Source: Colwellia sp. PAMC 20917
GTDB taxonomy: Bacteria; Pseudomonadota; Gammaproteobacteria; Enterobacterales; Alteromonadaceae
Direction: 5' to 3'
Length of the DNA stretch: 64,000 bases
Assembly (NCBI RefSeq): GCF_001767295.1
Contig: NZ_CP014944.1
Coordinates: forward strand, 1,612,001 to 1,676,000
Part shown: positions 8,211 to 36,618 of the stretch, in pieces
Layout: every line of letters begins with the position of its first letter
Position numbering within the stretch: the stretch's first letter is position 1
Translations under genes and position numbers: made by a program
The notes under the pieces: generated by a model
Database searches by the model: none
Told to the model about the DNA's origin: nothing
The model's input: only the letters and a program-made list of their open reading frames with translations

Positions 8211-9575
8211 TTAACGACCTAAACGTCTTAATGCTGAAGTAGAAAAATCTTTTCTTTTAACTTTTTCTCCCCAAACCATAAAGGTTGGCTCTTCATTACT
8301 TAAACCGGTAACTAAGTATCGTCCAGAGTTTAAGTCATGTAAGGTTTCAGCAACCATCCACGGTGTATCAACATCATAAAATTGAATGTTATGTGCTTCT
8401 GATAATTTCCATAACTCGCCACGGCCATCATATTGATCAATAACAGATGCGCCCCAAGTATCTTCATCAATAAAGAAAGTACGTTTTGCATAAATATGTC
8501 TAGCACCTTCTTTTAATGTCGCCTCTACTTGCCAAACACGGTGTAATTCATATCTTAAGTGCGCAGCATTAAGGTGACCTTTTTCTATAATGTCTTCATA
8601 TTTAGCTGTCGTATCAAGTAAATTATAAGAGTTATATGGAATATAAAGCTCTTTTTTACCAATTAATTTCCAGTTGTAACGATCTGGCGCACCATTGTAC
8701 ATATCGTAGTTATCGGTCGCTCTTAAGCCGTCCGTTCCAGCACCCGGTCCATCATAGGCAACATTAGGTGCACGACGAACACGACGTTGACCTGCGTTAT
8801 AAACCCAAGCTTTACGGGCTTCTTTAACTTGATCGATCGTTTCATGAACCAATAATGCTGTGCCAGTTAAGCGCGATGGTGCGGTAATTTGTTGTAAGTA
8901 ATAAAACAAAATATTGGCATCTTTTTTATCATCACGTCCTCCTTGTAAAAACTCTGGCCACACTAATTGATCATTCATTTTAACGGGTACAAATGAACCA
9001 TTAGCTTGCACTGGAATAGTGGTTAAAAAACGTTTAGCCGTACCGCCACGATAACGGGTTATATGATTCCAAATAACCTCTGAACCATTTTCAGCAAGCG
9101 GAAAAGGGATCGTAGTTTTAAAGTTAGCGATACCATTGCCTGACTGCACTAATTCAGCGGTAGTGGCATTTTTCTTAACGATGTCGTAAAGCTCATTTGA
9201 GTAAGCTGCAGTTCTTCTTGTTTTATAAATAGGCATTTTATAGTCTGCATATTTTTCAAACATATTGATTTGACCGGCACTTAAATTATCTTGGTAATCG
9301 CTAAAGTTAGCACTCGTAATTTCAAACAAAACCTTATCTTCAGTGAATGGGTTAGCCGGACGGCCTGAATCTGCACTTTTTGTGGTATTTTTACTGGTCA
9401 GCCCTCCGGTCCATGCGGGAATCGTTCCGGCAGCATTTGCCGCCATTTCAGCACCTAAAGGTGTTAAATTTTTACCTAATTGTTCTGCTTTTTCTGAAGT
9501 TACTTTTGCAAAGACAGCGCTGGTCGCTAGTGATAACATCAGTAAACTTGCTGTTGTAATATATTTTTTCATCAT
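8211..9575 (-). CDS. DUF1329 family periplasmic or outer-membrane-associated protein
   Basis: A 454-residue protein with a signal peptide (KKYITTASLLMLSLATSAVFA). The stretch GAEMAANAAGTIPAWTGGL right after it, and later GQRRVRRAPNVAYDGPG and YELHRVWQVEATLK, are typical of the DUF1329 family, which has a LolA/LolB-like lipid-binding fold by family knowledge. DUF1329 genes commonly stand beside DUF1302, YCF48-like and RND/MMPL genes in marine and soil proteobacteria that use hydrophobic substrates, as here. A role in carrying a lipid-like substrate across the periplasm is an inference. It starts 26 bases after the DUF1302 stop and ends about 107 bases before the alkylsulfatase gene. Confidence 0.9.
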   Translation of the reverse strand: MMKKYITTASLLMLSLATSAVFAKVTSEKAEQLGKNLTPLGAEMAANAAGTIPAWTGGLTSKNTTKSADSGRPANPFTEDKVLFEITSANFSDYQDNLSAGQINMFEKYADYKMPIYKTRRTAAYSNELYDIVKKNATTAELVQSGNGIANFKTTIPFPLAENGSEVIWNHITRYRGGTAKRFLTTIPVQANGSFVPVKMNDQLVWPEFLQGGRDDKKDANILFYYLQQITAPSRLTGTALLVHETIDQVKEARKAWVYNAGQRRVRRAPNVAYDGPGAGTDGLRATDNYDMYNGAPDRYNWKLIGKKELYIPYNSYNLLDTTAKYEDIIEKGHLNAAHLRYELHRVWQVEATLKEGARHIYAKRTFFIDEDTWGASVIDQYDGRGELWKLSEAHNIQFYDVDTPWMVAETLHDLNSGRYLVTGLSNEEPTFMVWGEKVKRKDFSTSALRRLGR

Positions 9576-20115: not shown

Positions 20116-20778
20116 TTATTGCTTAAGGCGTCGTACTGCTAATCCCATTATACCTAAGGCAAAAATAGCTAAACTGGTCGGCTCTGGTACTTTATTCATT
20201 ACGACATTATCCATTACACCATAAAGATTACTGGTACTTAACATCGTTATGCGAATTTCATCGACCATAACACCCTTCAAATTAATCGCTTCTTCAGTTG
20301 AGAACTGATCATGCCATTTTGTGGTAGTCGTTGTATATGCGTCAATTCCTTGAGGTATGAGATCTAAGAAACCTGTCACAGTGAAAATGTCACCCTCATT
20401 GTAATATGAAGCAATATCAAACCGTTCAAAAGTAAATAAGCCGTTAGTTGAGAAAACCCAAGTTGACTTTGAACCACCATCAGCAAAAGCGGTTTGACCG
20501 GTAGTAAACCCTGGATTTACAATTTTAGTACGAGCTTCATCCCCAAAATCACTATTAACAATACCATCAATAGCAGCAAAAGCAGCACTTGTAGTGCTAG
20601 TAGCATTGGCATTGCTAGAAGCACTAATATAAAAGCCGTTGTCGAAACCTTTATCAAAATCACCTATATCTAAGCTTTCAAAATCGATGGTAATTAGTGA
20701 TGCCGATGCGACATTAACTAAACAACTACACGCGAAGATAAAGCTTGTGACACTGGCTGTTATAAATTTAGTTTTCAT
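20116..20778 (-). CDS. PEP-CTERM sorting-signal protein
   Basis: A 220-residue exported protein. An N-terminal signal peptide (SVTSFIFACSCLVNVASA) is followed by a Ser/Thr/Ala-rich domain of no family I recognise. The C-terminus is a textbook PEP-CTERM tail: VPEPTSLAIFALGIMGLAVR then RLKQ, that is, a VPEP motif, a hydrophobic helix and basic residues. By family knowledge such tails are recognised by exosortase/EpsH, which cleaves and anchors or releases the protein, usually with exopolysaccharide production. No exosortase gene is in this window. It lies 179 bases beyond the S8 protease stop and is separated from it by a strong terminator at 20907-20940, so it has its own promoter. Confidence 0.9.
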   Translation of the reverse strand: MKTKFITASVTSFIFACSCLVNVASASLITIDFESLDIGDFDKGFDNGFYISASSNANATSTTSAAFAAIDGIVNSDFGDEARTKIVNPGFTTGQTAFADGGSKSTWVFSTNGLFTFERFDIASYYNEGDIFTVTGFLDLIPQGIDAYTTTTTKWHDQFSTEEAINLKGVMVDEIRITMLSTSNLYGVMDNVVMNKVPEPTSLAIFALGIMGLAVRRLKQ

Positions 20779-20956: not shown

Positions 20957-23431
20957 CTATAGGTAGTTATTAAAAAAACGTGTCGCGGCTACTGCGTAAT
21001 CAGCGCGGCTAACTCGTGCTTTACCGTTAAAGGTCGCCGTTATAGTAGGGACTAAATCATAAGTACCCTGTTGAACGTCAAAGCTTGCGCCTAATATTCC
21101 TAAGTCTAAGGCTAGTTGTACGTAACCTTTCATTGCTTGTGGAATATCAGCTTGGTCTGCTATCGCTATACGTTGCTCGCCATAAATAGCAGTAATTTCA
21201 CCAGTAAAGCTTTCTGCAGTCGATTGTAAAGCCAATGACTGTACAAAAGAATAAGCTAACTCATTGCGATTAACTAAGCCTTGTGGATTAAAATGAGTAC
21301 CATTAGTCAACATTACTGCATGTTGATCTTGTGCACCATTTCGTAAAGCGGCACCCTTTTCACTAGCCGCGTTAATAGCAGCAGTGTAAGTAGTATTTTC
21401 TGTGACATCAGTAAATGTGCTTGTTGTTGCCAAATTTGATTGACGAATACCGGCACCTAAGCTTAAGAAATCAGCTAGGTCTTCACGGGTAAGGCTAATA
21501 TCTGGTTGAAAACCTTCCGTATTTGCATCGACTAATTCTTCACTAACTGCGAATTCAATAAACGCTTTAGCGGGGTGGTTAGTTGAATCATCAAGACCAA
21601 GATAACCATCAGTTTTTATAATCTTAACCGTTACGTCAATATCACCAGGTACCGCATAACCATTGGTTAATCCAGCAGGGTCAAGCGCAACACCGGAAAG
21701 ACTACCAATACCACCAGCTTTAAGAATCCACTCACCCGCTTCCGCTGGCGCTGTCACTGCAATGTTTTGACCTAAAACAGGTAAAGCGATACTTGACCCG
21801 TAACGTTTTTTCGAAGGACTAATCAAGGTAAGTGCTACCGTATTATCATCAATGTTTGCTCGAACCATCACCATAGAAGCTTCGGCATTGACGGTCAAAA
21901 CAACACCTTCATTATCACCAACAGGACTAAACGGCACAGACATATCATCTTCTGACTGAACTGAGGTTAACGCTTTAGCATTAAAATCACGGTTGATTTT
22001 AGCAGTTTTGCCAAAAACTAAACTTTTATCGACAATTGATTGTACTGCCGCGTAGGCATTGACATAACCGGCGCCAGCTTCCCATGTTTCTCGACCAGGC
22101 ATATTGGTAGCGGTTTCTTGCAATATTGACTTAACTTCACGCCACGTTAACTTAGGTTCAGCTTCTAACATCAAAGCAACGACACCAGCAACATGTGGCG
22201 CTGACATCGACGTACCGCTCATAGAAGTATAATAAGGCACGTGATTAGCTTCCATCACTTCGCTATCATCGGCAATGCTCAAGGCACTTAAGCTAGATAA
22301 TGAAGCACGGGTTGAAATAATATCAACACCCGGCGCAGTAACAGTAGGACGGTCTTCCCACTGAAAGAGCTCGCCATCAACCGTAACTTCGCCACCTTTA
22401 CCTTTAACACCACGTGAACTAAAGTCAGCTAATTTACCGTCTTTATCACCCGCTGCTACGGTAATGACCCAAGGTGCTTTTTTGAAGTTACCAGTGATTG
22501 TCGCTTCGCCGCTTCCCGAGTTACCCGCAGAGAAAACGACAATAATACCCGCATCTGATAATGTTTTAGTGACAACATTGGTTGGATGGTCAGGGTTAAA
22601 GTCAGTACCTGTATCACTTGTACTACCAAAAGAGTTTGAAATAACGCGAATATTATAATCAAATTGATGCGTCTTAGCGTAATCAAAACCACCGATAGTG
22701 TCTAAAATAAATAAACCTGCACCTGAGCCATAACCAACAATTTTTGCGCCAGGAGCTACACCTTGATATTTACCCCTGGACATCGCACCGTTGCCACCAA
22801 TAATGCCCGCAACATGAGAACCATGACCACCAGCAATATCACTGTTCGCGATATCTTCTTGGTAAGTTATGGGTAAAATATCTGATAACGATTGTAGGTT
22901 AGTTTGTGCCAATACGTTTTGAACAACGTGGTTAGGAAATTTAATGTCGCTGTGCGTGCCATCAACACCCGAGTCATTAACCACAACCCCGATACCACGT
23001 CCAGAATATGGCATACCGTTACTACGTAAAGATTCATCATCACGTAAGCGGTCAACACCGGTAATTTGTGTTGCTCTATTATTTTCTAATGACAATGGCG
23101 CGTTGTAGTAAACAGAGCGTACTTTATTTGATTTATAAATAGCTTCTATTTGCGCCTTTGTTGCCGTTATACCCACAATAGGAAACTGCTTAAAGCTTAC
23201 GCCACCAATAACACCCGTTGATTCAATAACGTTTAGCTGTTGTGCATTAATAGCTCCTTTACCTTCGAAAGTAACGATGACGTTAAAAACTTCATGTACT
23301 TCAGCAGTTGCCATCAAACCTTTCAGTTCAGGTCCGATAGATTTAGCGGCAATATTTAGCGACATGAAAGTTAAGCCTGCACCAATAAGGCCAGCGATTA
23401 ATATTTTATTTTTTAATTGTGTTTTTAGCAT
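20957..23431 (-). CDS. secreted S8 (subtilisin-like) protease with SLH-type tail, left paralogue
   Basis: About 824 residues. The signal peptide is LIAGLIGAGLTFMSLNIAAKS. An inhibitor-I9-like propeptide follows (FKQFPIVGITATKAQIEAIY). The catalytic triad is visible as VVVNDSGVDGTHSD (Asp), GGHGSHVAGIIGGNG (His) and MSGTSMSAPHVAGVVAL (Ser), with the oxyanion Asn in VVFSAGNSGSGE. A long beta-rich region follows, then SLH-like repeats such as VNRNELAYSFVQSLAL and VSRADYAVAATRFF, suggesting attachment to the cell surface. I chose ATG 23429-23431 because it begins the signal peptide and has AAGG upstream; an ATG at 23476 would add 15 residues. It is a clear paralogue of the protease at 30219-32687 and follows the response-regulator gene on the same strand. 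Confidence 0.92.
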   Translation of the reverse strand: MLKTQLKNKILIAGLIGAGLTFMSLNIAAKSIGPELKGLMATAEVHEVFNVIVTFEGKGAINAQQLNVIESTGVIGGVSFKQFPIVGITATKAQIEAIYKSNKVRSVYYNAPLSLENNRATQITGVDRLRDDESLRSNGMPYSGRGIGVVVNDSGVDGTHSDIKFPNHVVQNVLAQTNLQSLSDILPITYQEDIANSDIAGGHGSHVAGIIGGNGAMSRGKYQGVAPGAKIVGYGSGAGLFILDTIGGFDYAKTHQFDYNIRVISNSFGSTSDTGTDFNPDHPTNVVTKTLSDAGIIVVFSAGNSGSGEATITGNFKKAPWVITVAAGDKDGKLADFSSRGVKGKGGEVTVDGELFQWEDRPTVTAPGVDIISTRASLSSLSALSIADDSEVMEANHVPYYTSMSGTSMSAPHVAGVVALMLEAEPKLTWREVKSILQETATNMPGRETWEAGAGYVNAYAAVQSIVDKSLVFGKTAKINRDFNAKALTSVQSEDDMSVPFSPVGDNEGVVLTVNAEASMVMVRANIDDNTVALTLISPSKKRYGSSIALPVLGQNIAVTAPAEAGEWILKAGGIGSLSGVALDPAGLTNGYAVPGDIDVTVKIIKTDGYLGLDDSTNHPAKAFIEFAVSEELVDANTEGFQPDISLTREDLADFLSLGAGIRQSNLATTSTFTDVTENTTYTAAINAASEKGAALRNGAQDQHAVMLTNGTHFNPQGLVNRNELAYSFVQSLALQSTAESFTGEITAIYGEQRIAIADQADIPQAMKGYVQLALDLGILGASFDVQQGTYDLVPTITATFNGKARVSRADYAVAATRFFNNYL

Positions 23432-23492
23432 TGGAATAAACCTTATATGTTTTGATACATCGAGCATGCCAAACATTAAGGTTTAAAATAAT

Positions 23493-23507
23493 CAGGTAAA
23501 ACCCCTA
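23493..23507 (-). promoter_or_regulatory. motif shared by both S8 protease upstream regions (left copy)
   Basis: CAGGTAAAACCCCTA lies 62 bases before the chosen protease start. A near-identical CAGGGGAAAACCCCTA is found at 32786-32801 before the other protease. On the coding strand both read TAGGGGTTTT then CC and TG. It is a candidate operator, perhaps for the response regulator encoded just upstream. Confidence 0.4.
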
Positions 23508-23532
23508 CAAGGAAGAGGTTAATATACCTTGT

Positions 23533-24171
23533 TTATAGCAGTAGGTTATTTTTGGCCGCATAACGGACCAATTCAGCAGCGTTGGCAACGCTCAATTTAT
23601 CTAGTACTTTACCGCGATGGTTTTCTGCTGTTTTAACACTTATATCTAATGAACGAGCAATTTCTTTGGTGGTTTTACCTTCAATGATTAAATGAAAGAC
23701 TTCACGTTCACGATTAGTCAGGTTTTTGTAGGGGTCTTGCCAATTTTCTGCTGGTTTGTTGTATTGTGATGCCAACACACTTGCCGCGTATTGGCTGTAA
23801 TAGGTTTTCCCCGCAGCTAATGCTTTTACCGCATCGATGAGCTCGTCACTCGCACTGTCTTTTAATAAATAACCAGAAGCACCCGCTCTAACCATATGAA
23901 TGACATACTCTTGTTCTTCATGCATAGTTAGCACTAACACTTTTGTGCCTGGCAGTTGGCCATTTAGGCGTTTAACCGCTTCCATACCGTTCAATCCTGG
24001 CATGCTAATATCGATAACGATAACGGTGGGTTTTAATTCCAGCGCTTTGCTCACGGCTTCAAGTCCGTCTGCTGCTTCAGCAACCACCTGAATATCATCA
24101 TCTTTACTTAATAAACTGACCAGTCCATGACGTAAAATAGTATGATCATCTGCAATAAGAACACGGATCAT
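23533..24171 (-). CDS. NarL/FixJ family response regulator
   Basis: A 212-residue protein. The receiver domain has the acidic pair IADD (residues 8-9), the phosphoacceptor Asp54 in VIVIDISMPG and the Lys of LLKDSASDE. The LuxR-type helix-turn-helix is at the C-terminus: LTNREREVFHLIIEGKTTKE and SLDISVKTAENHRGKVLDKL. Its ATG overlaps the stop of the histidine kinase gene (24168-24171), so the two form a cognate pair. It probably controls the protease genes or its own cluster; the shared motif before both proteases is a candidate target, but this is inference. Confidence 0.95.
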   Translation of the reverse strand: MIRVLIADDHTILRHGLVSLLSKDDDIQVVAEAADGLEAVSKALELKPTVIVIDISMPGLNGMEAVKRLNGQLPGTKVLVLTMHEEQEYVIHMVRAGASGYLLKDSASDELIDAVKALAAGKTYYSQYAASVLASQYNKPAENWQDPYKNLTNREREVFHLIIEGKTTKEIARSLDISVKTAENHRGKVLDKLSVANAAELVRYAAKNNLLL

Positions 24172-24890
24172 CGGCCATTCCTCCCCGTTACCAATATTTT
24201 TATTTCACAGCCTTGTCCTGGCTGCGAAATTATTGTTAATTGACCACCGAAGGCACTTATTCTATCGCGCATTGCGCCTAAGCCAAAACCCTCAGGACTC
24301 GCTTCTTGATCAGCTTTCATTCCTATACCGTCATCTTTTATTTTAATCATTAAAAGATTATCAGTCGCAATTAAATTGAGAATAATTTTTTGTGCTTGTG
24401 CATGCTTAATCGCGTTGGTCAGCGCTTCTTGTATTACTCGAAACGCTAGGGTTTGAGTATCACTATCTAAAATACTGTCAACTTGATGATGAAATTCAAT
24501 CATCGCTTTTTCGGGGTCCGCCATAATACGCACTAACCAATCAAGGGCAGGAATAAGCCCAAGGTCATCTAAAATTCTGGGGCGCATTAAGCGAGAAATC
24601 ACTCGAGTGTCTGATAAGGCTTGACGTGCAAGATCGATACTCTCATCAAGCGCTATACTCTCGTCACCTTTTTTAACTTGCTGCAGTTGATTAATCAAAG
24701 CCGTTAGCAGTTGTCCTACTCCATCATGTAATTCTCGAGCGATATGCTTACGTTCATCTTCTTGCACTCGCCAAACGCGTTTTGCCAAACCACGCATTTG
24801 CTCATTACCCGAATAAAGCTGTTGTGATATTTGTTTTTGCTTCTCATTAAGTTGATTAACCATTTTAGCAATATTGGCATTATTGGTCAT
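24168..24890 (-). CDS. cytoplasmic sensor histidine kinase (HisKA_3/HATPase)
   Basis: A 240-residue kinase with no membrane or recognised input domain. After a short coiled-coil start (NQLNEKQKQISQQLY) comes the dimerisation and phosphoacceptor block ERKHIARELHDGVGQLLTAL with His55, and then an ATPase domain with FRVIQEALTNAIKHA (N box), IKDDGIGMK (G1) and GFGLGAMRDRI (G2). This is the NarX/DegS-like group that pairs with NarL-type regulators. The absence of a sensor suggests it listens to another protein, most simply the Ser/Thr kinase whose 3' end overlaps its start by 11 bases (24880-24890). That link is inferred from gene order, not shown. Confidence 0.93.
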   Translation of the reverse strand: MTNNANIAKMVNQLNEKQKQISQQLYSGNEQMRGLAKRVWRVQEDERKHIARELHDGVGQLLTALINQLQQVKKGDESIALDESIDLARQALSDTRVISRLMRPRILDDLGLIPALDWLVRIMADPEKAMIEFHHQVDSILDSDTQTLAFRVIQEALTNAIKHAQAQKIILNLIATDNLLMIKIKDDGIGMKADQEASPEGFGLGAMRDRISAFGGQLTIISQPGQGCEIKILVTGRNGR

Positions 24891-27800
24891 GGCGTGATAA
24901 CTCCATTAATGAATCATTTAATTCAAAATAGTCTTGAGTTTCTATGAATTTACCAGAAAATTCTGGAGGTAAATTAACCTTAAGATGCATCAGCTTTTTA
25001 GTCACTTTTTTATAATATTTTGTTGGGTCTTGTTGATTAACAATCGCCAATTGAGCACGTAAACGATCAAATTGAAAACTGCGCCAATAATCGCCCATTT
25101 TTCTTAATAAAATATCGGCTGACCTTAGTGTTGCTTTTAAATCAAGCCAAGCTCCTGCAAAATATTGCTGTACGGCTAAAAGCTCTAAATATTCAATATA
25201 CTGATATTGTTGCAGGCTAAAATCAACGTTAGCTAGTGGGGTCAAATAAACGCTGATATCTTTGTTGCCTTGGTGTAGAGACTGTCTTGCCTGATAAATT
25301 AATTGGCGAATATAAATAGATTGATGGGCATGATCTAAAACCCTATTATTTTTATTTTCAATAACCGCTGTCGGTAAACTCCCTACCGTCTGACTTTTTA
25401 AGAACTGAAATTTACTCATATGTTCTTTATTGCCATGATGCGAAACTATATCGTTTATGTTGGCTAAGTGCTTAGCCGCTTGCTCTTGGTCGCCCAGCTG
25501 TAATGACCAATCGGCTAACCATAGACCAAATTCAGCCATAGCTCTAACGTCATTAGCTTTAACAGCCGCTTGATAAGTCACCGTTAACTCTTCAATGCTC
25601 GCATAAAAATTACCTTGTAAAAAAGCGAGTTTTGTTAGGTAGCTACGCGAAACGATCGACTCTTCGGTAATATTGAGTTTTTCAGCATCGGTTAAAGTGT
25701 TGTTAAACAGGTGATAGGCATTGCGCCAATTTCCCTTAGCGAGTTCCATCTGCCCTAAGTTTTGTCGTACATGGATAATGCCAATGGGAAATTGTACTTG
25801 CTGATATAACTGCTCTGATTGACGCCAATAAACCAAGGCATGTTCTGGGTCAAGCAGCATAAAATAAGTGAAGCCAATATTATTCATACTCTCTGCCTGG
25901 AGCATTAAGTTATTGAGTTCAACTCGAATATTTAACGCATGACGATAATTCTCTAAGGCCGTTTGATACAAAGCTTGCTCTTCAGCCAATTTTCCTAGCT
26001 CATTATAAGTATTCGAAAGACCCTCTTGATCGTCTAACTTCTGATAGATAGCTAAACTTTCTGTTAGGTATTGTTCCGTCTGCTGGTATTCACCAACCGC
26101 TAAATGCATAGCGGCTAAGTTAGTCATAGTGGTCGCTGCATCGGCTAAGTTACTTAGTTGTCTTCTAATTTTTAACGATTGTTGATAATAATCAAAGGCA
26201 AGTTCTGTTTCTCCTAACTGTCCATAAACAACACCAAAGGCATTTAGCGCCTCACCTTCTTGAACACGATTTTTTAGTTTCTTAGCGGTGACCAGTGCCT
26301 TAACAAAATATTCATTTAACGCTTTTTCAAAATCACCTTGTAAAAATGCCACTCTACCTAACATAAACCATGCACTAGGATGGTTTGGATCAATTTTTAC
26401 CACTTCTTGTAGTAAGACTTCCATTTTTTTATGTTGTTCAATTAAAAAATAGAACTCTGATAGCATCATCTTAAGTTCAGTGTTGTAAGGAAATGCATTC
26501 ACTAAACTTAAATAATCAGTTTGAGCTTGTTCGATTTTACCCGCTAAATCATTTAAGCGTGCACTCGCTAGTTTCGCCGTATAAGAATTAGTGGCGCTAA
26601 ATGCTATCGCTTGGCTATAAGCCTGTTCGGCTTCCATGAATAAACCTATCGTCAGGTTTAATTCACCTTGTTGCAGCCAAGCTTGCGCAGAATTGGGTTC
26701 TCTCGCTAATATTTGGCTTAACGCTTGCTGCGCCTGCTCAAACTCACCCTTTAAAATAAGTGTTTTAATAGGAAATAAATCAACCAAAGGGTTTTCTTCA
26801 ATCTCAATGGTTTTTTCGGCATTCACCTCTATGTCTAAACGCTGCCTAAATTTATCGACAAAATGTCGAGTCACTTCTTGCCAATCTTTCTCGTCATAAG
26901 GGGCTTTTATTAAGGTTTCGCGTTGAATGTTAAAACCATCGACAGAAACCAACTGAAACTGAATATCTTTAGCCTCAGAACCGGCAATAAATGTTTGTGG
27001 GCTAATAAGCACGTCAATCTGCAGTAAGTCTGATATCAACTCCATATTAGCGTCATCAATGGGAGGCGTAATACCCAGTTGCGCTAATAGCTGGCTTAAT
27101 CTCGATTGTTCAATCACCCGTAAGTTCTTAATATCGGTTAATTGGTAATTCAAATAGTTAGCAAAGGTTTGATCAAATTCGCCCTCTTGTGTCTGCAAAG
27201 GTAATATCGCCACCGCGTAATGATCGACTGCATTGGCTTTAATCGGTGTTTGACGACTCAGAAACAAAACCACTGCGATGGTAAAAAATACCATCATCGA
27301 CATAACCGTCACTATTAACCGCTTTTTGCTGATGGGTTTATTATCTTTTTCTGCTAATAAACTAATATATTGATTCTGCGCTTGGTTAATATTAGTGGGA
27401 CGGGATGCGGGATGTGGAGAAATGAGTGTCAATGACCATGACTTTAGAAAGTTAAACTCTTCTTTAACGGCCTTAAATTTAGGTTTATCTAACAACTTAG
27501 TCTGTAAAATTTCATCAATCGAATGGCCACTAAAGGGTAAACCGTGACAACATAATTGAAAGATCACTACACCTGCGGCATACAAATCAGTGGTTAAGTT
27601 TATTTTACCGGTTTGTAAATACTCTGGTGGCGCATAATAAGGTGTCCCTGAAACACGGTCAGCGTTACTTTCTTTATTAAAAGCAGACAAGCCAAAATCG
27701 GCAATAAAGAGCCGACCTGACTCATCTAACATGATATTTTCAGGCTTAATATCTTTATGAGTAACCCCCGCTTTTTCAGCAAAGGCTAAGCCATCTAATA

Positions 27801-28233
27801 ATTGCTCAATAATTTGAAAAGTTTGTTCAGTTGTGAGTGAATTTGATGCGATAGCTTCTTCTAGACTGCTACCCGAAATCCAATCCATGGTTAAAAAGTG
27901 AACATCTTCATCTTGGTAGTATTCATGAACGCGGATAATATTGGGGTGACTTAATTGACGAACCAATAATAATTCTTTTTTAAAATCAGCAATGGTTTGC
28001 TTATCTTGACTCAGCGATGTATTGAGGACTTTGATGGCGATAACGGTATCGAGCTGCTTATCATAGGCGCGGTAAACAAAACCATAACGGCCTTGTCCTT
28101 GCAGACTTTCAATTTCAAAACGACCAACAAGACACTCTCCAGCAGCAAGCGGCTTAGACAAGGGTATTATTTGAGTCGCATTTAGCTGATCATCATCGCT
28201 ATGTGTTAACTTGGGTGATTTTAAATCGCTCAT
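24880..28233 (-). CDS. Ser/Thr protein kinase with membrane anchor and TPR repeats
   Basis: A 1117-residue protein. The N-terminal kinase domain (about 37-300) looks active: glycine loop LQGQGRYGFVY, Lys68 in IAIKVL, catalytic THKDIKPENIML (HRD replaced by HKD), metal-binding ADFGLSAF and YYAPPE. One membrane helix follows (VTVMSMMVFFTIAVVLFL, near 310-330). Beyond it is a FlgO-like or TolB-N-like segment (AVAILPLQTQEGEF) and then many TPR repeats to about residue 900, such as AWFMLGRVAFLQGDFEKALN and EALNAFGVVYGQLGETELAF. The layout gives a cytoplasmic kinase and a periplasmic peptide- or protein-binding TPR domain. It is sandwiched between the FHA protein and the histidine kinase, with which it overlaps, suggesting a mixed Ser/Thr and His-Asp pathway. 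Confidence 0.93.
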   Translation of the reverse strand: MSDLKSPKLTHSDDDQLNATQIIPLSKPLAAGECLVGRFEIESLQGQGRYGFVYRAYDKQLDTVIAIKVLNTSLSQDKQTIADFKKELLLVRQLSHPNIIRVHEYYQDEDVHFLTMDWISGSSLEEAIASNSLTTEQTFQIIEQLLDGLAFAEKAGVTHKDIKPENIMLDESGRLFIADFGLSAFNKESNADRVSGTPYYAPPEYLQTGKINLTTDLYAAGVVIFQLCCHGLPFSGHSIDEILQTKLLDKPKFKAVKEEFNFLKSWSLTLISPHPASRPTNINQAQNQYISLLAEKDNKPISKKRLIVTVMSMMVFFTIAVVLFLSRQTPIKANAVDHYAVAILPLQTQEGEFDQTFANYLNYQLTDIKNLRVIEQSRLSQLLAQLGITPPIDDANMELISDLLQIDVLISPQTFIAGSEAKDIQFQLVSVDGFNIQRETLIKAPYDEKDWQEVTRHFVDKFRQRLDIEVNAEKTIEIEENPLVDLFPIKTLILKGEFEQAQQALSQILAREPNSAQAWLQQGELNLTIGLFMEAEQAYSQAIAFSATNSYTAKLASARLNDLAGKIEQAQTDYLSLVNAFPYNTELKMMLSEFYFLIEQHKKMEVLLQEVVKIDPNHPSAWFMLGRVAFLQGDFEKALNEYFVKALVTAKKLKNRVQEGEALNAFGVVYGQLGETELAFDYYQQSLKIRRQLSNLADAATTMTNLAAMHLAVGEYQQTEQYLTESLAIYQKLDDQEGLSNTYNELGKLAEEQALYQTALENYRHALNIRVELNNLMLQAESMNNIGFTYFMLLDPEHALVYWRQSEQLYQQVQFPIGIIHVRQNLGQMELAKGNWRNAYHLFNNTLTDAEKLNITEESIVSRSYLTKLAFLQGNFYASIEELTVTYQAAVKANDVRAMAEFGLWLADWSLQLGDQEQAAKHLANINDIVSHHGNKEHMSKFQFLKSQTVGSLPTAVIENKNNRVLDHAHQSIYIRQLIYQARQSLHQGNKDISVYLTPLANVDFSLQQYQYIEYLELLAVQQYFAGAWLDLKATLRSADILLRKMGDYWRSFQFDRLRAQLAIVNQQDPTKYYKKVTKKLMHLKVNLPPEFSGKFIETQDYFELNDSLMELSRHDQ

Positions 28234-28259
28234 ATAGCCTTTTTACTAATGATATAGTA

Positions 28260-29162
28260 TTAGTGGCACAAATTAAGCAAACTACAGTCTTTATCGCTAG
28301 ATGTCCATATCGAGTTCTCATTAAGAATTAGTTGCAATGAATCAATAGATTGTTGCAGCAACATCGCCTGAACGGTTGCTTCGAGTTGTTGGCTCATACT
28401 GCTTAAGATTTCTATATCCAACTCGGTTAGCACTTTATCAGACATTTTGCTGTCGGTATAAATAATCCCTACCACTTTATGCTCATAAAACAGTGGAATG
28501 CAGGCTAAAGCAGCAATTTGTTTCAGTTCGATGCTTTTACGAGCACTTAACAGTTCATGGCATGAAACATCCATAGCAACCACGTTTTGTCCACTTTCAA
28601 AACAACGTGTTATCGCGCCAACACTGCCTTCAAACTCTGATAGTTTAAAATCATTTCGCTGCATACCATGGGCAATACTGACATTAAGTGAAGCTAACGT
28701 ATCGCCAAGTAAGACGATACCGCGTTGAGTGCCCGTTAACATGATAATATTTTGCAATTGTTCAGAGAGATTTTGTTTTAAATGCTCGGTCAACGGTATT
28801 GAAGTAGGTGTTTGGCTACTCGACAACCGCCATGCATTGTGGGTAATTATCGCATCAACTTGTTTTGACGACTTAGTTTCAAAAAGACAATCGAGTTCGC
28901 CAATAGAAATAATCGCGTCATCTTTTAAAGTAGAATGGGTAATTGCTATACCATTAACTTTAGTGCCATTACGACTGCGCTCATCATCAAGTTGCCAAAT
29001 TTCGTTTAAATGGGCAACTTTAGCATGCTGGCGAGAAACGGTTGGGTGATCAAGCAACAACTCACATTGGTGAGAACGTCCTAAACGGTAACCATTATCT
29101 TCATAAAGAAAACTTTCTATCGCTGGTTGGTCCGGATAACAAATTGTAATTTTAGCTGGCAT
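28260..29162 (-). CDS. FHA and GAF domain protein
   Basis: A 300-residue cytoplasmic protein. The FHA domain fills the first 100 residues: GYRLGRSHQCELLLDHPTVS, then RQHAKVAH and DERSRNGTKVNG, with the Arg, Ser and Asn that bind phosphothreonine. The rest fits a GAF domain (IVLLGDTLASLNVSIAHGMQ, then ALACIPLFYEHKVVGIIYTD). FHA domains dock onto phosphothreonine, so the obvious partner is the Ser/Thr kinase whose gene starts 26 bases downstream. The GAF part may bind a small molecule. A good AAGGGTGA ribosome site precedes the ATG. It lies 35 bases after the stop of the secreted unknown protein, within what looks like one operon. Confidence 0.9.
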   Translation of the reverse strand: MPAKITICYPDQPAIESFLYEDNGYRLGRSHQCELLLDHPTVSRQHAKVAHLNEIWQLDDERSRNGTKVNGIAITHSTLKDDAIISIGELDCLFETKSSKQVDAIITHNAWRLSSSQTPTSIPLTEHLKQNLSEQLQNIIMLTGTQRGIVLLGDTLASLNVSIAHGMQRNDFKLSEFEGSVGAITRCFESGQNVVAMDVSCHELLSARKSIELKQIAALACIPLFYEHKVVGIIYTDSKMSDKVLTELDIEILSSMSQQLEATVQAMLLQQSIDSLQLILNENSIWTSSDKDCSLLNLCH

Positions 29163-29197
29163 AAGATCACCCTTAATTGAACACTATTTTGTCGATG

Positions 29198-30034
29198 CTA
29201 TTTGATTAATCGCAAGCTGAATCGTAAGGTGTTGGCATAAGCCATAAGCTCGCCAGCAACATTATGAATATCTCGACTTGAACGCCAAACATCAGGAATA
29301 TTTATGCCTTTATTATCATTAATACGGCGATTAAAGTCATTAAGCTTACTACTCGCCATATGGTAATTGTTCGACAAAATAAGTTGGTTAATTTCATTTA
29401 CATCTTGCAGTAACATCGAATAAACCGCTGCATTTATTTTGGATGAAAAATCATTAAGTGCGGTTTGTAAATCGTTAAATTTTTGGTTAACAACAACCAA
29501 CGGAGCCCGTAAATCGGCAACAATAATAAATTGTGAGAAACGCCCTGTTGAACCACGTGTTCTATAGCTACCGGCACCCATAGTCATAGTGATATCTTTA
29601 AACTCACCATTAAGTGGCGCTTTAAAGAATCGCAGCGGTGTACCCGCGGTATATTCTAAATTATGCGTGTGTAAATCAACCGAAGCTAATCCTGAAAATG
29701 AAAAACCACTGTTCGCCAAAGGCTCAATAGTAATCATCATTGGAAATGCTGCAGAGGGAGAGATATTTAAGTCTTCGGGTAAACGGTCAATAAAATCTAA
29801 TGAGGTAACGTCAATAATTTCTGCCGTTAGCCCTAAACTCTCTTTCGTTAAACCAACCGCATTTTCAAATTGTAGAGTCATATCGGCAGAAATATTGCCC
29901 GGTAAATGAATAACCGCCTCGACCTTATTACCTTGTACGTTGACTGACACCGATTCAGAAGCGAATGAGATTGTACTGACCAACATAGCTGTTGATGTTA
30001 GTACTAAAGTAAGTAGCTTTTTTATATGCAACAT
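29198..30034 (-). CDS. secreted protein of unknown function in kinase operon
   Basis: A 278-residue protein I do not recognise. It has a signal peptide (LLTLVLTSTAMLVSTISFAS) and AGAGGA before its ATG. The mature part begins with beta-rich sequence (VSVNVQGNKVEAVIHLPG), has the segment MTMGAGSYRTRGSTGRFSQF near the middle, and ends in a helical stretch with NEINQLILSNNYHMASSKLN. No cysteine pair, lipobox or catalytic motif is visible. Its position as first gene before the FHA protein, kinase, histidine kinase and regulator makes it a candidate periplasmic signal protein or ligand for the kinase's TPR domain. That is inference from place only. Confidence 0.7.
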   Translation of the reverse strand: MLHIKKLLTLVLTSTAMLVSTISFASESVSVNVQGNKVEAVIHLPGNISADMTLQFENAVGLTKESLGLTAEIIDVTSLDFIDRLPEDLNISPSAAFPMMITIEPLANSGFSFSGLASVDLHTHNLEYTAGTPLRFFKAPLNGEFKDITMTMGAGSYRTRGSTGRFSQFIIVADLRAPLVVVNQKFNDLQTALNDFSSKINAAVYSMLLQDVNEINQLILSNNYHMASSKLNDFNRRINDNKGINIPDVWRSSRDIHNVAGELMAYANTLRFSLRLIK

Positions 30035-30106
30035 ATTTTGTCCTCTGGGTAGTAACCTGACAATGTCATCAAATTATTTTTTACACTATTCTAACTAGAA
30101 CCTACG

Positions 30107-30120
30107 TTGATCTACGTCAA
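30107..30120. promoter_or_regulatory. FNR/Anr-like site upstream of the kinase operon
   Basis: TTGATCTACGTCAA matches the FNR-type consensus TTGAT-N4-ATCAA at all but one position and lies about 75 bases before the start of the secreted protein gene. If used, the kinase-FHA operon would respond to oxygen. A single short match in AT-rich DNA can be chance. Confidence 0.4.
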
Positions 30121-30149
30121 TTAGCAAGTTCTATGGCGCTTTTACTAAC

Positions 30150-30182
30150 AACAAAACCAAGCCTAGTCAGGTTGGTTTTGTT
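30150..30182 (-). terminator. intrinsic terminator of the right S8 protease gene
   Basis: AACAAAACCAA and TTGGTTTTGTT form a perfect 11-base stem around an 11-base loop, about 37 bases after the protease stop. On the minus strand the stem ends in a T-rich stretch. It separates the protease from the kinase operon. Confidence 0.72.
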
Positions 30183-30218
30183 ATTAATGTTAATTATATA
30201 AATGTTAAGTGTTAACAG

Positions 30219-32687
30219 TTATTTACGTAAGTATCCATCATATAACCGGCTAATGATAATGGCATAGTCTCCACGCTTAACAACGCTGGCTGGTTCAAAG
30301 TAAGCAACAACGGTTGGCGATAGGTCATAAGGCCCTTGTTCAATAGCGAAACGAACCCCGATTAATGACATATCGATTGCAGCCTGCACATAACCTTTTA
30401 GCGCTTCATTAATATCACTTGAGTCCATAATAGCAATTCGTTCGCCGTTATATTCAACGGTTATATCACCACCAAAGTCTTTAACTTGTCTTTCTAATCC
30501 GAGTGCCTGTACCAGTGAATAGGCTAACTCTTGTTTATTCACCTTAGCGTGTGGTTGAAAACTATCACCGTTAGAAATCATCACCGGTGCTTGGTTTTGT
30601 ACTCGATCTTTAAGCGCTGAGCCAGTTTCCGTGACGGCATCAACAAAAGGGGCGTGTTTCGCGTTAACATCAGTAAAGACGGTTTTATTATCATTTAAAA
30701 AGTTACGGTGCTGCCTAATTGACATACCCATGACTAAATATTGCGCCAGCTCTTTACGTCTTAACTTAGCATCAGGACGATAAAATTGATCGTTTTTACT
30801 ATCAACTAAACGCTCACTGACCGCAAATTCAATTGCTTTTTCTGCAGGATGTCCGGCAATGTCGCTTAACCCCTCGTAGCCACCTGAGGTTAAAATTGAA
30901 ATATCACCTTCGATATATTCAGGAATACCAGGGCCATTAGTAGTACCTGTTGGATCAGCTTGTACACCTGATAAAGAAGTGATACCAAAGGCAGATAGTT
31001 TCCATTCTCCGGTTTGTGCTGGTGCAGAAACTCGCATGGTGCTACTTAGCACAGGCGTTGTTAAGTTACCAAAATAGACGGTACCGTCTGGAGCTTCCAA
31101 TTTAAGTTTAACCAGATTGGCCAATGTTTCAGAGGAAGCACTTATCCATGCTGCATCATCTTGAACGTTAAATGTATGGACTTCAGGTTCACCTGCTGGA
31201 GTAAATAGAACGCTAAATGGCTCAGGTGCTTCGTCATCAATAATAATCGCATTGGCATTAAAGCTATTGAGATTATTCACCGTTGCACTGTTTTGTTCGT
31301 TATAACCTAGGGCTCCAGCAACTGCTGCATATGCATTGACATGACCCGCGCCCACTTCCCAAGATTGGTAACCGGGCATATTAGTAGCGGTTTCTTGAAG
31401 AATAGTTTTTATTTGTAAGTTGGTTAAATTGGGATTAGCTTCCCACATCAAGGCAATAATACCGGCAACATGAGGCGCAGCCATCGAAGTGCCTGAAATT
31501 CTTGTGTAAAATGGTAAGTATTCGTTTTCAATCACGCCAATATCATCGGCACCACCATTAGAAGCGATATTGGTTTTAGCACGTGTCGAAATAATATCAA
31601 CACCTGGGGCAACAATAGTCACTTCATTTATATAAGTCCAAGCTGAACCGTCTGGCATCCTAAAATCACCGCTTTCACCACGTTTACCCCGCGATGAGAA
31701 ATCGATTAAGTCGCCTTGCTTGGTACTTGCACCAACAGAGATACCCCATGGGATTTGAGCATATGGATTATGTGTGTCTTCACCTGAACCACTATTACCG
31801 GCAGCAAATACCGATATAATGCCCACTCTGTGGGCTTTATAAGACGCTAAAGATATTGGACCTGCAGAGTCATATTTGCCACTAGAGCCCCAAGAGTTAC
31901 TCATCACTCGAATGGGAGAGTTAAAATCATAAACGTGGGTAATAGCATAATCATAGCCGCCCAGCGCATCTAAAATAGAAAGACCCGCTCCAGAGCCATA
32001 ACCAATAATATCAGCGCCGGGTGCTGCACCTTGGTATTTGCCGCCAGAGTGAGTACCCCAACCACCTACAGTACCGGCACAATGTGTACCATGACCAACA
32101 TTTAAGTCAGTGTTACGTTGGCCTTCTAGCCACATACCGTCAAAACCTGTTAAGGAAAGTGCTTGAGCATGGGTAACGCCTTGCACATTTTCAATCACTT
32201 TAACGCCATATTCTAAATCATCTAATGTTGCATCGATGCCTGAATCATTAACAATAACGGTAACGCCCTTACCCGTGTATTTCATGCCATTGTTGCTGTT
32301 GAATGCGCTAGATTGTAGTTTTTCTACACCTGTTATCTGACGTGCTTCAGCATTATAATATTCTAATGAACGGTTAGCGAATATCGAACGAACACCTGGC
32401 ATTGCCGCTAAGTGATTAATCTGATTAGCGTTTGCCATCACACCAACGATAGGTAATGATTTAAACTGTACACCTTGAGTTAAACCAAGGTTTAATAAGC
32501 TTTGCAACTGGGTAGTTGTTAATGCATCAAGTTGATCATAGGAAACGACAACCATAGTGCTGTCCGTTACTGTCATATTTTGTAATTGTTGCTCTAATTG
32601 AGAGCCAATGACTGCAGCTGCGGTTGCACTTAGACTGATACCTGCGATTGACATGGTTATTGCCATGTTCTTTATTATTGTCTTCAT
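30219..32687 (-). CDS. secreted S8 (subtilisin-like) protease with SLH-type tail, right paralogue
   Basis: An 822-residue paralogue of the protease at 20957-23431, with the same domain order. The signal peptide is ITMSIAGISLSATAAA; the I9-like propeptide contains FKSLPIVGVMANANQINHL. The triad is in VIVNDSGIDATLDD (Asp), VGHGTHCAGTVGG (His) and ISGTSMAAPHVAGIIALM (Ser); the oxyanion Asn is in SVFAAGNSGSGE. The two share IIGYGSGAGLSILDALGGYD-type sequence around the His-to-Asn region. SLH-like repeats at the end include LRRKELAQYLVMGMSIRQ and VKRGDYAIIISRLY. It has a Cys beside the catalytic His, absent in the other copy. It has its own promoter region and terminator, separate from the kinase operon downstream. 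Confidence 0.92.
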   Translation of the reverse strand: MKTIIKNMAITMSIAGISLSATAAAVIGSQLEQQLQNMTVTDSTMVVVSYDQLDALTTTQLQSLLNLGLTQGVQFKSLPIVGVMANANQINHLAAMPGVRSIFANRSLEYYNAEARQITGVEKLQSSAFNSNNGMKYTGKGVTVIVNDSGIDATLDDLEYGVKVIENVQGVTHAQALSLTGFDGMWLEGQRNTDLNVGHGTHCAGTVGGWGTHSGGKYQGAAPGADIIGYGSGAGLSILDALGGYDYAITHVYDFNSPIRVMSNSWGSSGKYDSAGPISLASYKAHRVGIISVFAAGNSGSGEDTHNPYAQIPWGISVGASTKQGDLIDFSSRGKRGESGDFRMPDGSAWTYINEVTIVAPGVDIISTRAKTNIASNGGADDIGVIENEYLPFYTRISGTSMAAPHVAGIIALMWEANPNLTNLQIKTILQETATNMPGYQSWEVGAGHVNAYAAVAGALGYNEQNSATVNNLNSFNANAIIIDDEAPEPFSVLFTPAGEPEVHTFNVQDDAAWISASSETLANLVKLKLEAPDGTVYFGNLTTPVLSSTMRVSAPAQTGEWKLSAFGITSLSGVQADPTGTTNGPGIPEYIEGDISILTSGGYEGLSDIAGHPAEKAIEFAVSERLVDSKNDQFYRPDAKLRRKELAQYLVMGMSIRQHRNFLNDNKTVFTDVNAKHAPFVDAVTETGSALKDRVQNQAPVMISNGDSFQPHAKVNKQELAYSLVQALGLERQVKDFGGDITVEYNGERIAIMDSSDINEALKGYVQAAIDMSLIGVRFAIEQGPYDLSPTVVAYFEPASVVKRGDYAIIISRLYDGYLRK

Positions 32688-32785
32688 ACTTTATATCTAC
32701 CAGTCTTTAAAAGTGTATTTTATTTACCCTATTATTTGACTAGATTTTGACAAATAACACCATCGGGAACAGCCCCTATTTTATA

Positions 32786-32801
32786 CAGGGGAAAACCCCT
32801 A
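32786..32801 (-). promoter_or_regulatory. motif shared by both S8 protease upstream regions (right copy)
   Basis: CAGGGGAAAACCCCTA, about 100 bases before the protease start, contains the short palindrome AGGGGAAAACCCCT. It matches the copy at 23493-23507 with one gap and one substitution. A further CCCCTA at 32773-32778 lies in the same region. Confidence 0.4.
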
Positions 32802-34836: not shown

Positions 34837-36618
34837 ATGAGTGTTATCAATACAGAAAAGCAAACGCCCCAAAGCACGGTTGTAGATTTACAACTATGCT
34901 TTGGTGGTTTTTCTCATAAAGGTTTAAAGGCAGAAAACCAAGACGCTTTTGCTGCTATTGTGCCAAAAAAACTTGAATTACGCGCTAAAGGCGCGGTTGT
35001 GGCGATCGCAGATGGAGTATCGAGCGCAAGTAAAGCCGCTGAAGCTTCACAACTTGCGGTCACTCAATTTATTCAAGAGTATCTTGCTACGCCCGAAACA
35101 TGGTCTACACAGAAATCTGCCGCTAAAGTATTAAGCAGTTTAAATAACTGGTTGTATTCACAAAGCGGATTTGTTGATGCTTTAGTTAATCAAGACTCTC
35201 CTCAATGGCTAACGACTTTTTCAGCGCTTATTGCTAAATCAAACACCGGTTATATTTTTCATGTTGGCGATACCCGTATAACAAAATATCGCCAGCAACA
35301 ATTAGAAATTATAACCCGTGCTCATAATCGTAAACAAATAGGGCAACAGGATTTATTAACACGCGCATTAGGTGCTGATAGCCATTTAGAAGTTGATGTT
35401 TATCAAGTTGATTTACAGGCAGGAGATTTATTTATGCTAAGTTGTGATGGTATTCATGACTTTGTTAGTAAAGCTGTTTTTAAAACACTCTTTGATTCAT
35501 TGCCGTTATCACCCAATAAGTCTGACTTAGAAGCACTTTCTGAAAAAATTGTTGCCACCGCACTTGAGCGCGGTAGTCATGACAATGTGACCTGCTTACT
35601 GGTTTATATTGACGCGATACCGAATCGGAAACTGGCAGAAATTGAACGCGATCTAAGTTCAAAAGCGATCCCTCCAGCATTAAAAGTTGGGCAGAAGCTT
35701 GATGATTACCTCGTTAAAAAAATAATACACGCCAGTATTCGTTCACACTTGTATTTAGTCGTCGATGTTAGAACAGATAAGCCTTATGTGTTAAAAGCCC
35801 CCTCTGCTAACTTTTCTGATGACGCCTTTTATTTACAAGGTTTTATGCGAGAAGCTTGGGTGGGAGAACGCATTAAACACGTTAATGTCATGCGTGTATT
35901 ATCTGCTAAAAAAGACAGCCAGTTTTTATACCATGTATGTGAATACATTAAAGGGCAAACCCTGGGTGAATGGTTACATGACAACCCTAAACCTAGCATT
36001 GCCCAGGTTCGCGATATAATGAAACAAGTGATTGGCGCATTACGATCATTTCAACGTTTAGATTTAGTTCACCGCGACTTAAAGCCCGACAATATTATGA
36101 TCGATGAATATGGTCAAATTAAATTGATTGATTACGGCACCGTATTTGTCGCTTCGCTTGATGAAAACCAAGAAACAATAAAAGAACAAGTGCCACACGG
36201 TTCATTAAATTATATTGCGCCTGAAACCTTATTGCATATGCAAGCTGATTATCAAAGTGACCTATTCTCATTGGGGGTTATTTGTTATGAAATGTTATCA
36301 GGTGAACTTCCTTACAAACCAATGCAACGTGCTGAAGTCACCATTAAAAATTATAACGATATACAATATCGTAGCATTAAACAGTTTCGACCAGAGCTGC
36401 CCTTGTGGTTAGATTTAAGCCTTCAAAAAGCAACGGCTGCAGACCCAAGACAGCGCTATAGAGCATTTTCAGAATTTTTTAGTGATTTAAATAAACCGAG
36501 TTCATCTGCCGTTGAAGAATACAAAAACCAACCCTTGTTAAAGCGTGATCCTATCTTTTTTTGGCAATTAGTATCAACCTTATTGTTTATTGCCTTGGTG
36601 GTATCTTTAGTTAATTAA
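34837..36618 (+). CDS. PP2C phosphatase-Ser/Thr kinase fusion protein
   Basis: A 593-residue protein. Residues 10-265 are a PP2C phosphatase with the metal-binding residues in place (ENQDAF, VAIADGVSS, SCDGIHD, GSHDNVTCLL). Residues 290-555 are a protein kinase: the Lys of YVLKAP, DLVHRDLKPDNIMIDEYGQI and LIDYGTV (DFG changed to DYG), then YIAPETLL. The glycine loop is weak (IIHASIRSHLYLV), so activity may be reduced. A C-terminal membrane helix (QLVSTLLFIALVVSLV) anchors it. Such fusions sit between the nitrate transporter and nirB in several gammaproteobacteria, including Pseudomonas; the substrate is not known to me. The gene lies 6 bases after the transporter and is surely cotranscribed. 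Confidence 0.93.
   Translation: MSVINTEKQTPQSTVVDLQLCFGGFSHKGLKAENQDAFAAIVPKKLELRAKGAVVAIADGVSSASKAAEASQLAVTQFIQEYLATPETWSTQKSAAKVLSSLNNWLYSQSGFVDALVNQDSPQWLTTFSALIAKSNTGYIFHVGDTRITKYRQQQLEIITRAHNRKQIGQQDLLTRALGADSHLEVDVYQVDLQAGDLFMLSCDGIHDFVSKAVFKTLFDSLPLSPNKSDLEALSEKIVATALERGSHDNVTCLLVYIDAIPNRKLAEIERDLSSKAIPPALKVGQKLDDYLVKKIIHASIRSHLYLVVDVRTDKPYVLKAPSANFSDDAFYLQGFMREAWVGERIKHVNVMRVLSAKKDSQFLYHVCEYIKGQTLGEWLHDNPKPSIAQVRDIMKQVIGALRSFQRLDLVHRDLKPDNIMIDEYGQIKLIDYGTVFVASLDENQETIKEQVPHGSLNYIAPETLLHMQADYQSDLFSLGVICYEMLSGELPYKPMQRAEVTIKNYNDIQYRSIKQFRPELPLWLDLSLQKATAADPRQRYRAFSEFFSDLNKPSSSAVEEYKNQPLLKRDPIFFWQLVSTLLFIALVVSLVN

Follow-up and report, generated by a model that had tools for sequence, protein, structure and literature searches.

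A five-gene phosphosignaling module in Colwellia and its relatives with a predicted narrow S8 protease regulon

The window, 64,000 nucleotides of the Colwellia sp. PAMC 20917 genome, carries seven genes on the minus strand in the arrangement given by the first-pass annotation, as confirmed by both coordinates and Pfam domains. The first is S8a (30219..32687), which encodes a secreted subtilase of 822 amino acids (aa) with C-terminal SLH-like repeats (Peptidase_S8, E = 4e-40) and has its own leader site. It is followed by genes for a 278-aa DUF6689 protein (29198..30034; PF20396, E = 3.4e-112), a 300-aa FHA-GAF protein (28260..29162; FHA, E = 6.9e-15; GAF, E = 2.8e-10), a 1117-aa Ser/Thr kinase (STPK) that combines Pkinase with a TPR solenoid and one membrane segment (24880..28233), a 240-aa sensorless histidine kinase (HK) with the Pfam domains HisKA_3 and HATPase_c (24168..24890), and a 212-aa NarL-type response regulator (23533..24171; Response_reg, E = 8.7e-28; GerE, E = 1e-18). 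The last gene, S8b (20957..23476), encodes another secreted subtilase (annotated length, 839 aa; Peptidase_S8, E = 2.2e-44), likewise with SLH-like repeats.

Consecutive genes of the five-gene core, from DUF6689 to the regulator, are spaced by +35, +26, -11, and -4 bp, in keeping with the short gaps and overlaps noted originally. The distance from S8a to DUF6689 is 184 bp, and this interval contains a strong hairpin (30142..30188, minus strand; RNA fold, -21.8 kcal/mol; z = -6.07) that is absent from the calls of a simple terminator scan and is probably the S8a terminator. Because of this gap and the hairpin preceding DUF6689, S8a probably forms a transcript apart from the core genes. The two proteases that were said to enclose the signaling genes are both present and paralogous, but the set probably does not make up a single transcript. 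At the downstream end, an internal ATG near position 23431 of S8b is conserved among relatives and is probably the true start, which would give this gene a leader of about 100 bp. No phosphatase gene occurs within the module.

A PP2C phosphatase-Ser/Thr kinase fusion is encoded at 34837-36618 on the plus strand of the window, between NarK and NirB-like genes, and a PEP-CTERM protein gene (20116-20778, minus strand; C. hornerae counterpart, 62%) lies directly downstream of S8b. Neither the PEP-CTERM gene nor, on the upstream side, NarK and the PP2C-kinase fusion was accepted as part of the module, since among the other loci compared they adjoin it only in C. hornerae (L038).

The catalytic D, H, and S residues are kept in S8a and S8b and in all 56 protease rows compared, which rules out dead proteases. 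S8a and S8b are 44% identical and occupy separate places in the protease tree, ruling out a recent duplication; judged by this divergence, they are old paralogues. The SLH repeats of the first-pass description are a weak call: scored over the whole protein, one repeat exceeds the cutoff of 20.8 bits (31.7 bits in S8b and 24.3 bits in S8a), but no single stretch passes alone, and surface placement would depend on this weak match. A genome-wide SLH scan listed neither protein. SLH is clearer in the protease members of loci L066 and L033, and Pfam SLH is absent from the 472-, 492-, 686-, and 688-aa members.

Within the HK of the window, HisKA_3 and the ATPase-type domains are the only Pfam domains of note, and no input or sensor domain was found. 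Its orthologues measure 233 to 273 aa, and a hydrophobic segment occurs in 0 of 24, so the original claim that this kinase has no input domain holds across the loci. The other parts expected of a two-component system are present: HisKA_3 with its histidine (H55, invariant in the 13 of 24 rows that were aligned), HATPase_c, and a regulator joining a receiver to GerE.

The STPK contains a single hydrophobic segment, near residues 306-324. Its structural model (mean pLDDT, 84.2; pTM, 0.63) comprises a kinase fold, a helix at 305-326, an alpha/beta region at 339-466, and a TPR solenoid extending to the C terminus. Because there is one membrane segment and basic residues precede it, the TPR part would be periplasmic; in the STPKs of L033 and L065, no hydrophobic segment was detected at the threshold used. 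Residues 339-466, which link the membrane helix to the TPR solenoid, have no Pfam match and may form a FlgO- or TolB-like domain. The Hanks-type residues K68, D161, N166, and DFG179-181 are invariant in 21 of 21 aligned rows (all loci except L029, L030, and L032). Residues 2-25 are variable and are modeled as disordered, yet within this stretch Thr20 is kept in 22 of 23 aligned rows (all loci except L030), and position +3 holds Ile or Leu in all 23, yielding the motif Txx[I/L]. L065 has Val at the Thr20 position, and L021 is without the tail.

Some FHA domains prefer a hydrophobic residue at +3, and Thr20 is a candidate docking site for the FHA-GAF protein. The phosphothreonine pocket residues of the FHA domain (G28, R29, S43, and H46, corresponding to Gly-Arg and SxxH) are invariant in the 15 of 24 rows that were aligned; the Asn position is altered in L034 and L035. 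FHA domains recognize phosphothreonine, according to the available part of the source (PMC12189002), and the invariant pocket together with the short HK lacking a hydrophobic segment fits the idea of a phosphothreonine reader and relay.

The DUF6689 protein is hydrophobic at its N terminus, as judged by a hydrophobicity scan rather than a signal-peptide program, and is probably exported. Its AF2 model consists of a beta-rich domain followed by C-terminal helices (mean pLDDT, 87.1). A Foldseek search with this model returned no match at E ≤ 0.001, the best being a GH92 enzyme at 1.7e-3 and the weak matches including ankyrin ZU5, and a phmmer search against PDB returned a single weak match (E = 0.014).

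Comparison of DUF6689 neighborhoods, including that of one more distant gammaproteobacterium (G762), recovered the order DUF6689, FHA-GAF, STPK, HK, regulator in 24 nonduplicate loci, the window included, from Colwellia, Pseudoalteromonas, Kangiella, Pleionea, and further relatives. Excluded from this count were L037 (G270), with a DUF6689 match under the cutoff and no module, and L042, L043, and L045, which duplicate L025, L031, and L021. DUF6689 scores above the cutoff in 17 of 394 genomes of the order, with an 18th match below it, and near-full-length relatives of FHA-GAF (E ≤ 2.8e-99) are found in the same 17, an 18th match covering positions 101-280 only. Co-occurrence in other genomes had been set beforehand as a test that could refute the first-pass proposal, and the gene set survived it, as seen in the core order and the shared 17 of 394 genomes. 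The identical order in 24 loci also rules out a chance neighborhood. In all 24, the core domains are encoded by separate genes, with no fusion into a single polypeptide. The FHA-GAF frame of L044 is 218 aa long, compared with about 300 aa elsewhere, and is followed by a 267-bp gap to the kinase; it represents either a broken gene or a sequence error.

The module is patchily distributed. Wider draws placed it in 3 of 369 genomes of the class and 3 of 398 of the phylum, the same three genomes both times, and within the genus it occurs in 2 of 6 genomes, the C. hornerae DUF6689 being 95% identical to the window protein. The distant, GC-rich gammaproteobacterium G762 (L065) has the five-gene core, and both an S8 family protease and an operator-like site are absent from the 20 kb seen there. 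Pairwise divergences of the five core proteins correlate (r = 0.82 to 0.98), a pattern that could come from shared descent alone; the correlations, like the tree and the counts, are built on related sequences. Horizontal transfer of the module seems likely, given its patchy spread and the division of the Kangiella rows among more than one group of the protease tree. When plasmids were searched with the HK, every match was below 60% identity. We rejected an anti-phage system: PADLOC, run on six proteins, gave only kinase-domain matches and one subtilase match, and none for FHA-GAF, DUF6689, or HK.

Relatives of S8a (E ≤ 1e-60; two candidates scored per genome) are present in 15 of the 394 genomes of the order, all within the 17 core genomes. 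Eleven of the 15 are Kangiella, so that these rows are related; counted by genus, the figure is 5 of 115. In the remaining two core genomes (G224 and G392), the core is kept without a close S8 relative, and the proteases are not obligatory to it. Within the genus, the two module genomes hold close S8 relatives, both linked and unlinked, whereas in the other 4 of 6 subtilases are either distant (best E = 1.7e-15) or absent. In L033 and L034, the strand of S8b is flipped, which makes the gene an independent unit there.

A side-by-side comparison of leaders disclosed a near-palindrome, TAGGGG-W4-CCCY (first seen as TAGGGGTTTTCCCCTG), upstream of most protease genes. All of the window sites are on the minus strand. 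The S8a leader has an operator-like site 1, TAGGGGTTTTCCCCTG (32786..32801), with a second half-site, TAGGGGCTGTTCCCGA, 23 bp away (32763..32778); the S8b leader has a main operator-like site, TAGGGGTTTTACCTGA, with 3 mismatches to the palindrome (23492..23507) and an upstream half-site, AAGGTATATTAACCTC, 23 bp from it (23515..23530). Across the 64 kb, TAGGGGN5CC occurs 4 times (0.51 expected), 3 of them in the S8a and S8b leaders and 1 inside the regulator gene.

The association of this element with protease genes is strong. In 22 loci apart from the window, among genes with enough upstream sequence, AGGGGN4CCC in either direction lies between -250 and +100 of 42 of 49 S8 genes versus 4 of 255 other genes (Fisher exact test, P = 1.8e-39, the rows being related). 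Relaxing the match to ≤2 mismatches raises these numbers to 44 and 7, and to ≤3 mismatches, to 48 and 21. With the window included, the strict site is found in 43 of 51 S8 leaders, and 50 of 51 have a site within 3 mismatches of the 12 defined positions. The site is present before the strand-flipped S8b of L034 and absent from that of L033, though the frame start of the latter is doubtful. Among 47 aligned sites, for which AGGGG and CC were imposed by the search pattern and the leading T was left free, all 47 have this T, and A/T predominates in the spacer. A second half-site starts 22 to 24 bp away, upstream or downstream, in 41 of the 47 leaders; these offsets account for 54 half-site matches, and the remaining offsets average 0.37 each. 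In L024, a Kangiella locus (G107), no full-length S8a gene separates the third protease from DUF6689, but the 526-bp gap there still contains a palindrome of the TAGGGG type, as if the promoter had outlived the gene.

The four strict background matches precede two divergent genes beside S8a (L040 and L041) and two DUF6689 genes (L031 and L036). Since the other 22 of 24 DUF6689 leaders have no strict site and the L031 palindrome is probably an S8a terminator, self-control of the module is unsupported in most loci. In L036 (G392), whose genome contains the core without a close S8 relative, the palindrome before DUF6689 suggests self-control at that locus.

Operator-like sites extend to proteases unlinked to the module. 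At approximately 630 to 639 kb of the window genome (L066:4448-12690) are three further S8 family genes with such sites. Among the unlinked paralogues of this genome, the 472-aa gene has the leader site TTAGGGTAACCCCCTA; two sites (L066:9168 and 9298) lie in the intergenic region from which the 849- and 837-aa genes diverge, the one at 9298 being the perfect palindrome TAGGGGTAAGCCCCTA; and the leader of the 688-aa gene contains TAGGGGTTCTTCCCGA, with 2 mismatches. In the protease tree, the proteases in the downstream, S8b position form one group, the upstream proteases group with this unlinked trio, and the third Kangiella protease groups with the 688-aa protein and an unlinked protein of G215. 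A second NarL-type regulator gene, specifying 205 aa and 46% identical to that of the module, lies beside the trio (L066:12073-12690) and could be a rival or partner regulator. Scanning about 1.5 kb on each side of the domain at the seven other subtilase loci of this genome gave no strict match.

A broad regulon was searched for genome-wide and was not found. TAGGGGN4CCC occurs at 14 places in the window genome (16 matches versus 1 for the reversed control), comprising 4 S8 leaders, 5 places inside reading frames, and 5 between frames. The three non-S8 matches in C. hornerae (G394) are all inside reading frames, so the two genomes have no intergenic non-S8 place in common, and the protease sites are the only conserved intergenic places that they share. 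In nine other module genomes, the pattern is mostly not above the reversed control (e.g., 10 versus 25 in G224 and 13 versus 7 in G031), and of 15 noncluster places fetched (8 in frames and 7 between), none precedes a relative of the S8 proteases. This lack of general enrichment across genomes fits a narrow regulon.

Taken as a whole, the path that we lean toward, if only slightly, is one in which the five genes form a signaling module whose regulon of proteases is narrow. The STPK would sense something periplasmic through its TPR ectodomain, probably with the exported DUF6689 protein, and, to go by residue conservation, would phosphorylate its own Thr20 in the disordered N-terminal tail. The FHA-GAF protein would then dock on the phosphothreonine, its GAF domain setting the activity of the sensorless HK, which would phosphorylate the NarL-type regulator, as is established for these families. 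Finally, comparative genomics suggests that the regulator would bind TAGGGG-W4-CCCY and the second half-site 22 to 24 bp off, controlling both linked and unlinked S8 genes. This output to the S8 proteases is well supported by comparative genomics, and we hold it to be likely. It upholds the first-pass claim that proteases are the output, indirectly, through their common tandem operator-like site, but not as a fixed requirement, 2 of 17 core genomes being without a close S8 relative. That the STPK supplies the input to the HK through FHA-GAF is plausible, though the balance does not quite tip in its favor. The strictly linear version, a Ser/Thr-to-His-to-Asp relay in which a TPR receptor kinase is the true sensor, an FHA-GAF adaptor recruited by its Txx[I/L] tail gates the HK, and a dedicated regulon of secreted proteases answers to the regulator via tandem TAGGGG-W4-CCCY operators, is put forward tentatively.

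Somewhat unlikely, by our estimate, is an organization into parallel arms, in which the HK and regulator drive the proteases under the gating of the GAF domain or another partner, while the STPK and FHA protein act posttranslationally, e.g., on protease or DUF6689 export, their co-location reflecting shared physiology rather than a linear relay. In T6SS loci, FHA proteins and Ser/Thr kinases have posttranslational roles, sensing could be a property of the GAF domain itself, and the step from STPK and FHA to HK is one that we infer. However, none of the 24 loci encodes an HK with an input domain, and genomes lacking S8 relatives still keep the five core genes side by side.

We regard it as improbable that another regulator binds the site, or that the site is a leader RNA stem-loop, with module and proteases traveling together for other reasons. 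The element is a palindrome that frequently lies no more than about 120 bp from the start codon, another NarL-type regulator adjoins the unlinked trio, and the module regulator is assigned as binder by sequence-based prediction; but the tandem spacing of 22 to 24 bp, upstream or downstream, is consistent with dimers of a DNA-binding protein, nothing stands out in the RNA folds of the two window sites (z = -1.81 and -1.12), and in L036, whose genome lacks close S8 relatives, the site precedes DUF6689. We read TAGGGG-W4-CCCY as the predicted operator of the module's regulator, which is the likeliest binder because proteases and module are tied at the genome level.

Cyanobacterial STK-GAF-HisKA fusion kinases, presumably those named HstK, resemble the module in combining Ser/Thr kinase, GAF, and histidine kinase domains in one working unit. 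As far as the accessible text of the sources goes, these domains are fused in single cyanobacterial polypeptides with HisKA (PMC2176072, PMC1262709), whereas the Colwellia module uses separate proteins and HisKA_3 and adds FHA, a TPR ectodomain, DUF6689, and a linked protease regulon. In the mycobacterial PknG-GarA pair, a phosphorylated N-terminal site of the kinase recruits the FHA protein, according to the portion available (PMC12189002), which is like the arrangement proposed here, where phosphorylation of Thr20 is predicted only. The module also parallels the meeting of Stk1 with VraR, a NarL-family regulator that it phosphorylates on Thr (PMC4601284), but in the sections at hand Stk1 is pleiotropic and acts on the regulator directly, whereas the module is a dedicated gene set with an FHA-GAF protein in between. 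Like S8a and S8b, the subtilase NP_624131.1 joins an S8 protease to SLH repeats, but it has other accessory domains (PA, DUF1034, and Big_2) and belongs to a thermophile of another phylum, and the part of the source available mentions no tie to a signaling module (PMC2605481). The FHA protein of the module, unlike GarA, also carries GAF and adjoins a two-component pair.

The first-pass annotation knew of no described system of this composition, and our search of the open-access literature agrees, having found no paper that describes the fixed gene set or the operator-linked protease family. Within that literature, the kind of system is known, and what is new is the fixed composition and the operator-linked proteases. 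GarA controls metabolic enzymes, and links between Ser/Thr kinases and two-component systems have mostly been described as cross talk by pleiotropic kinases. The module provides a dedicated example, combining a candidate docking residue with an adaptor, a sensorless HK, and a predicted operator, and its predicted targets are few. It gives DUF6689 a functional context, and each of the proposed steps is open to testing in culturable marine bacteria.
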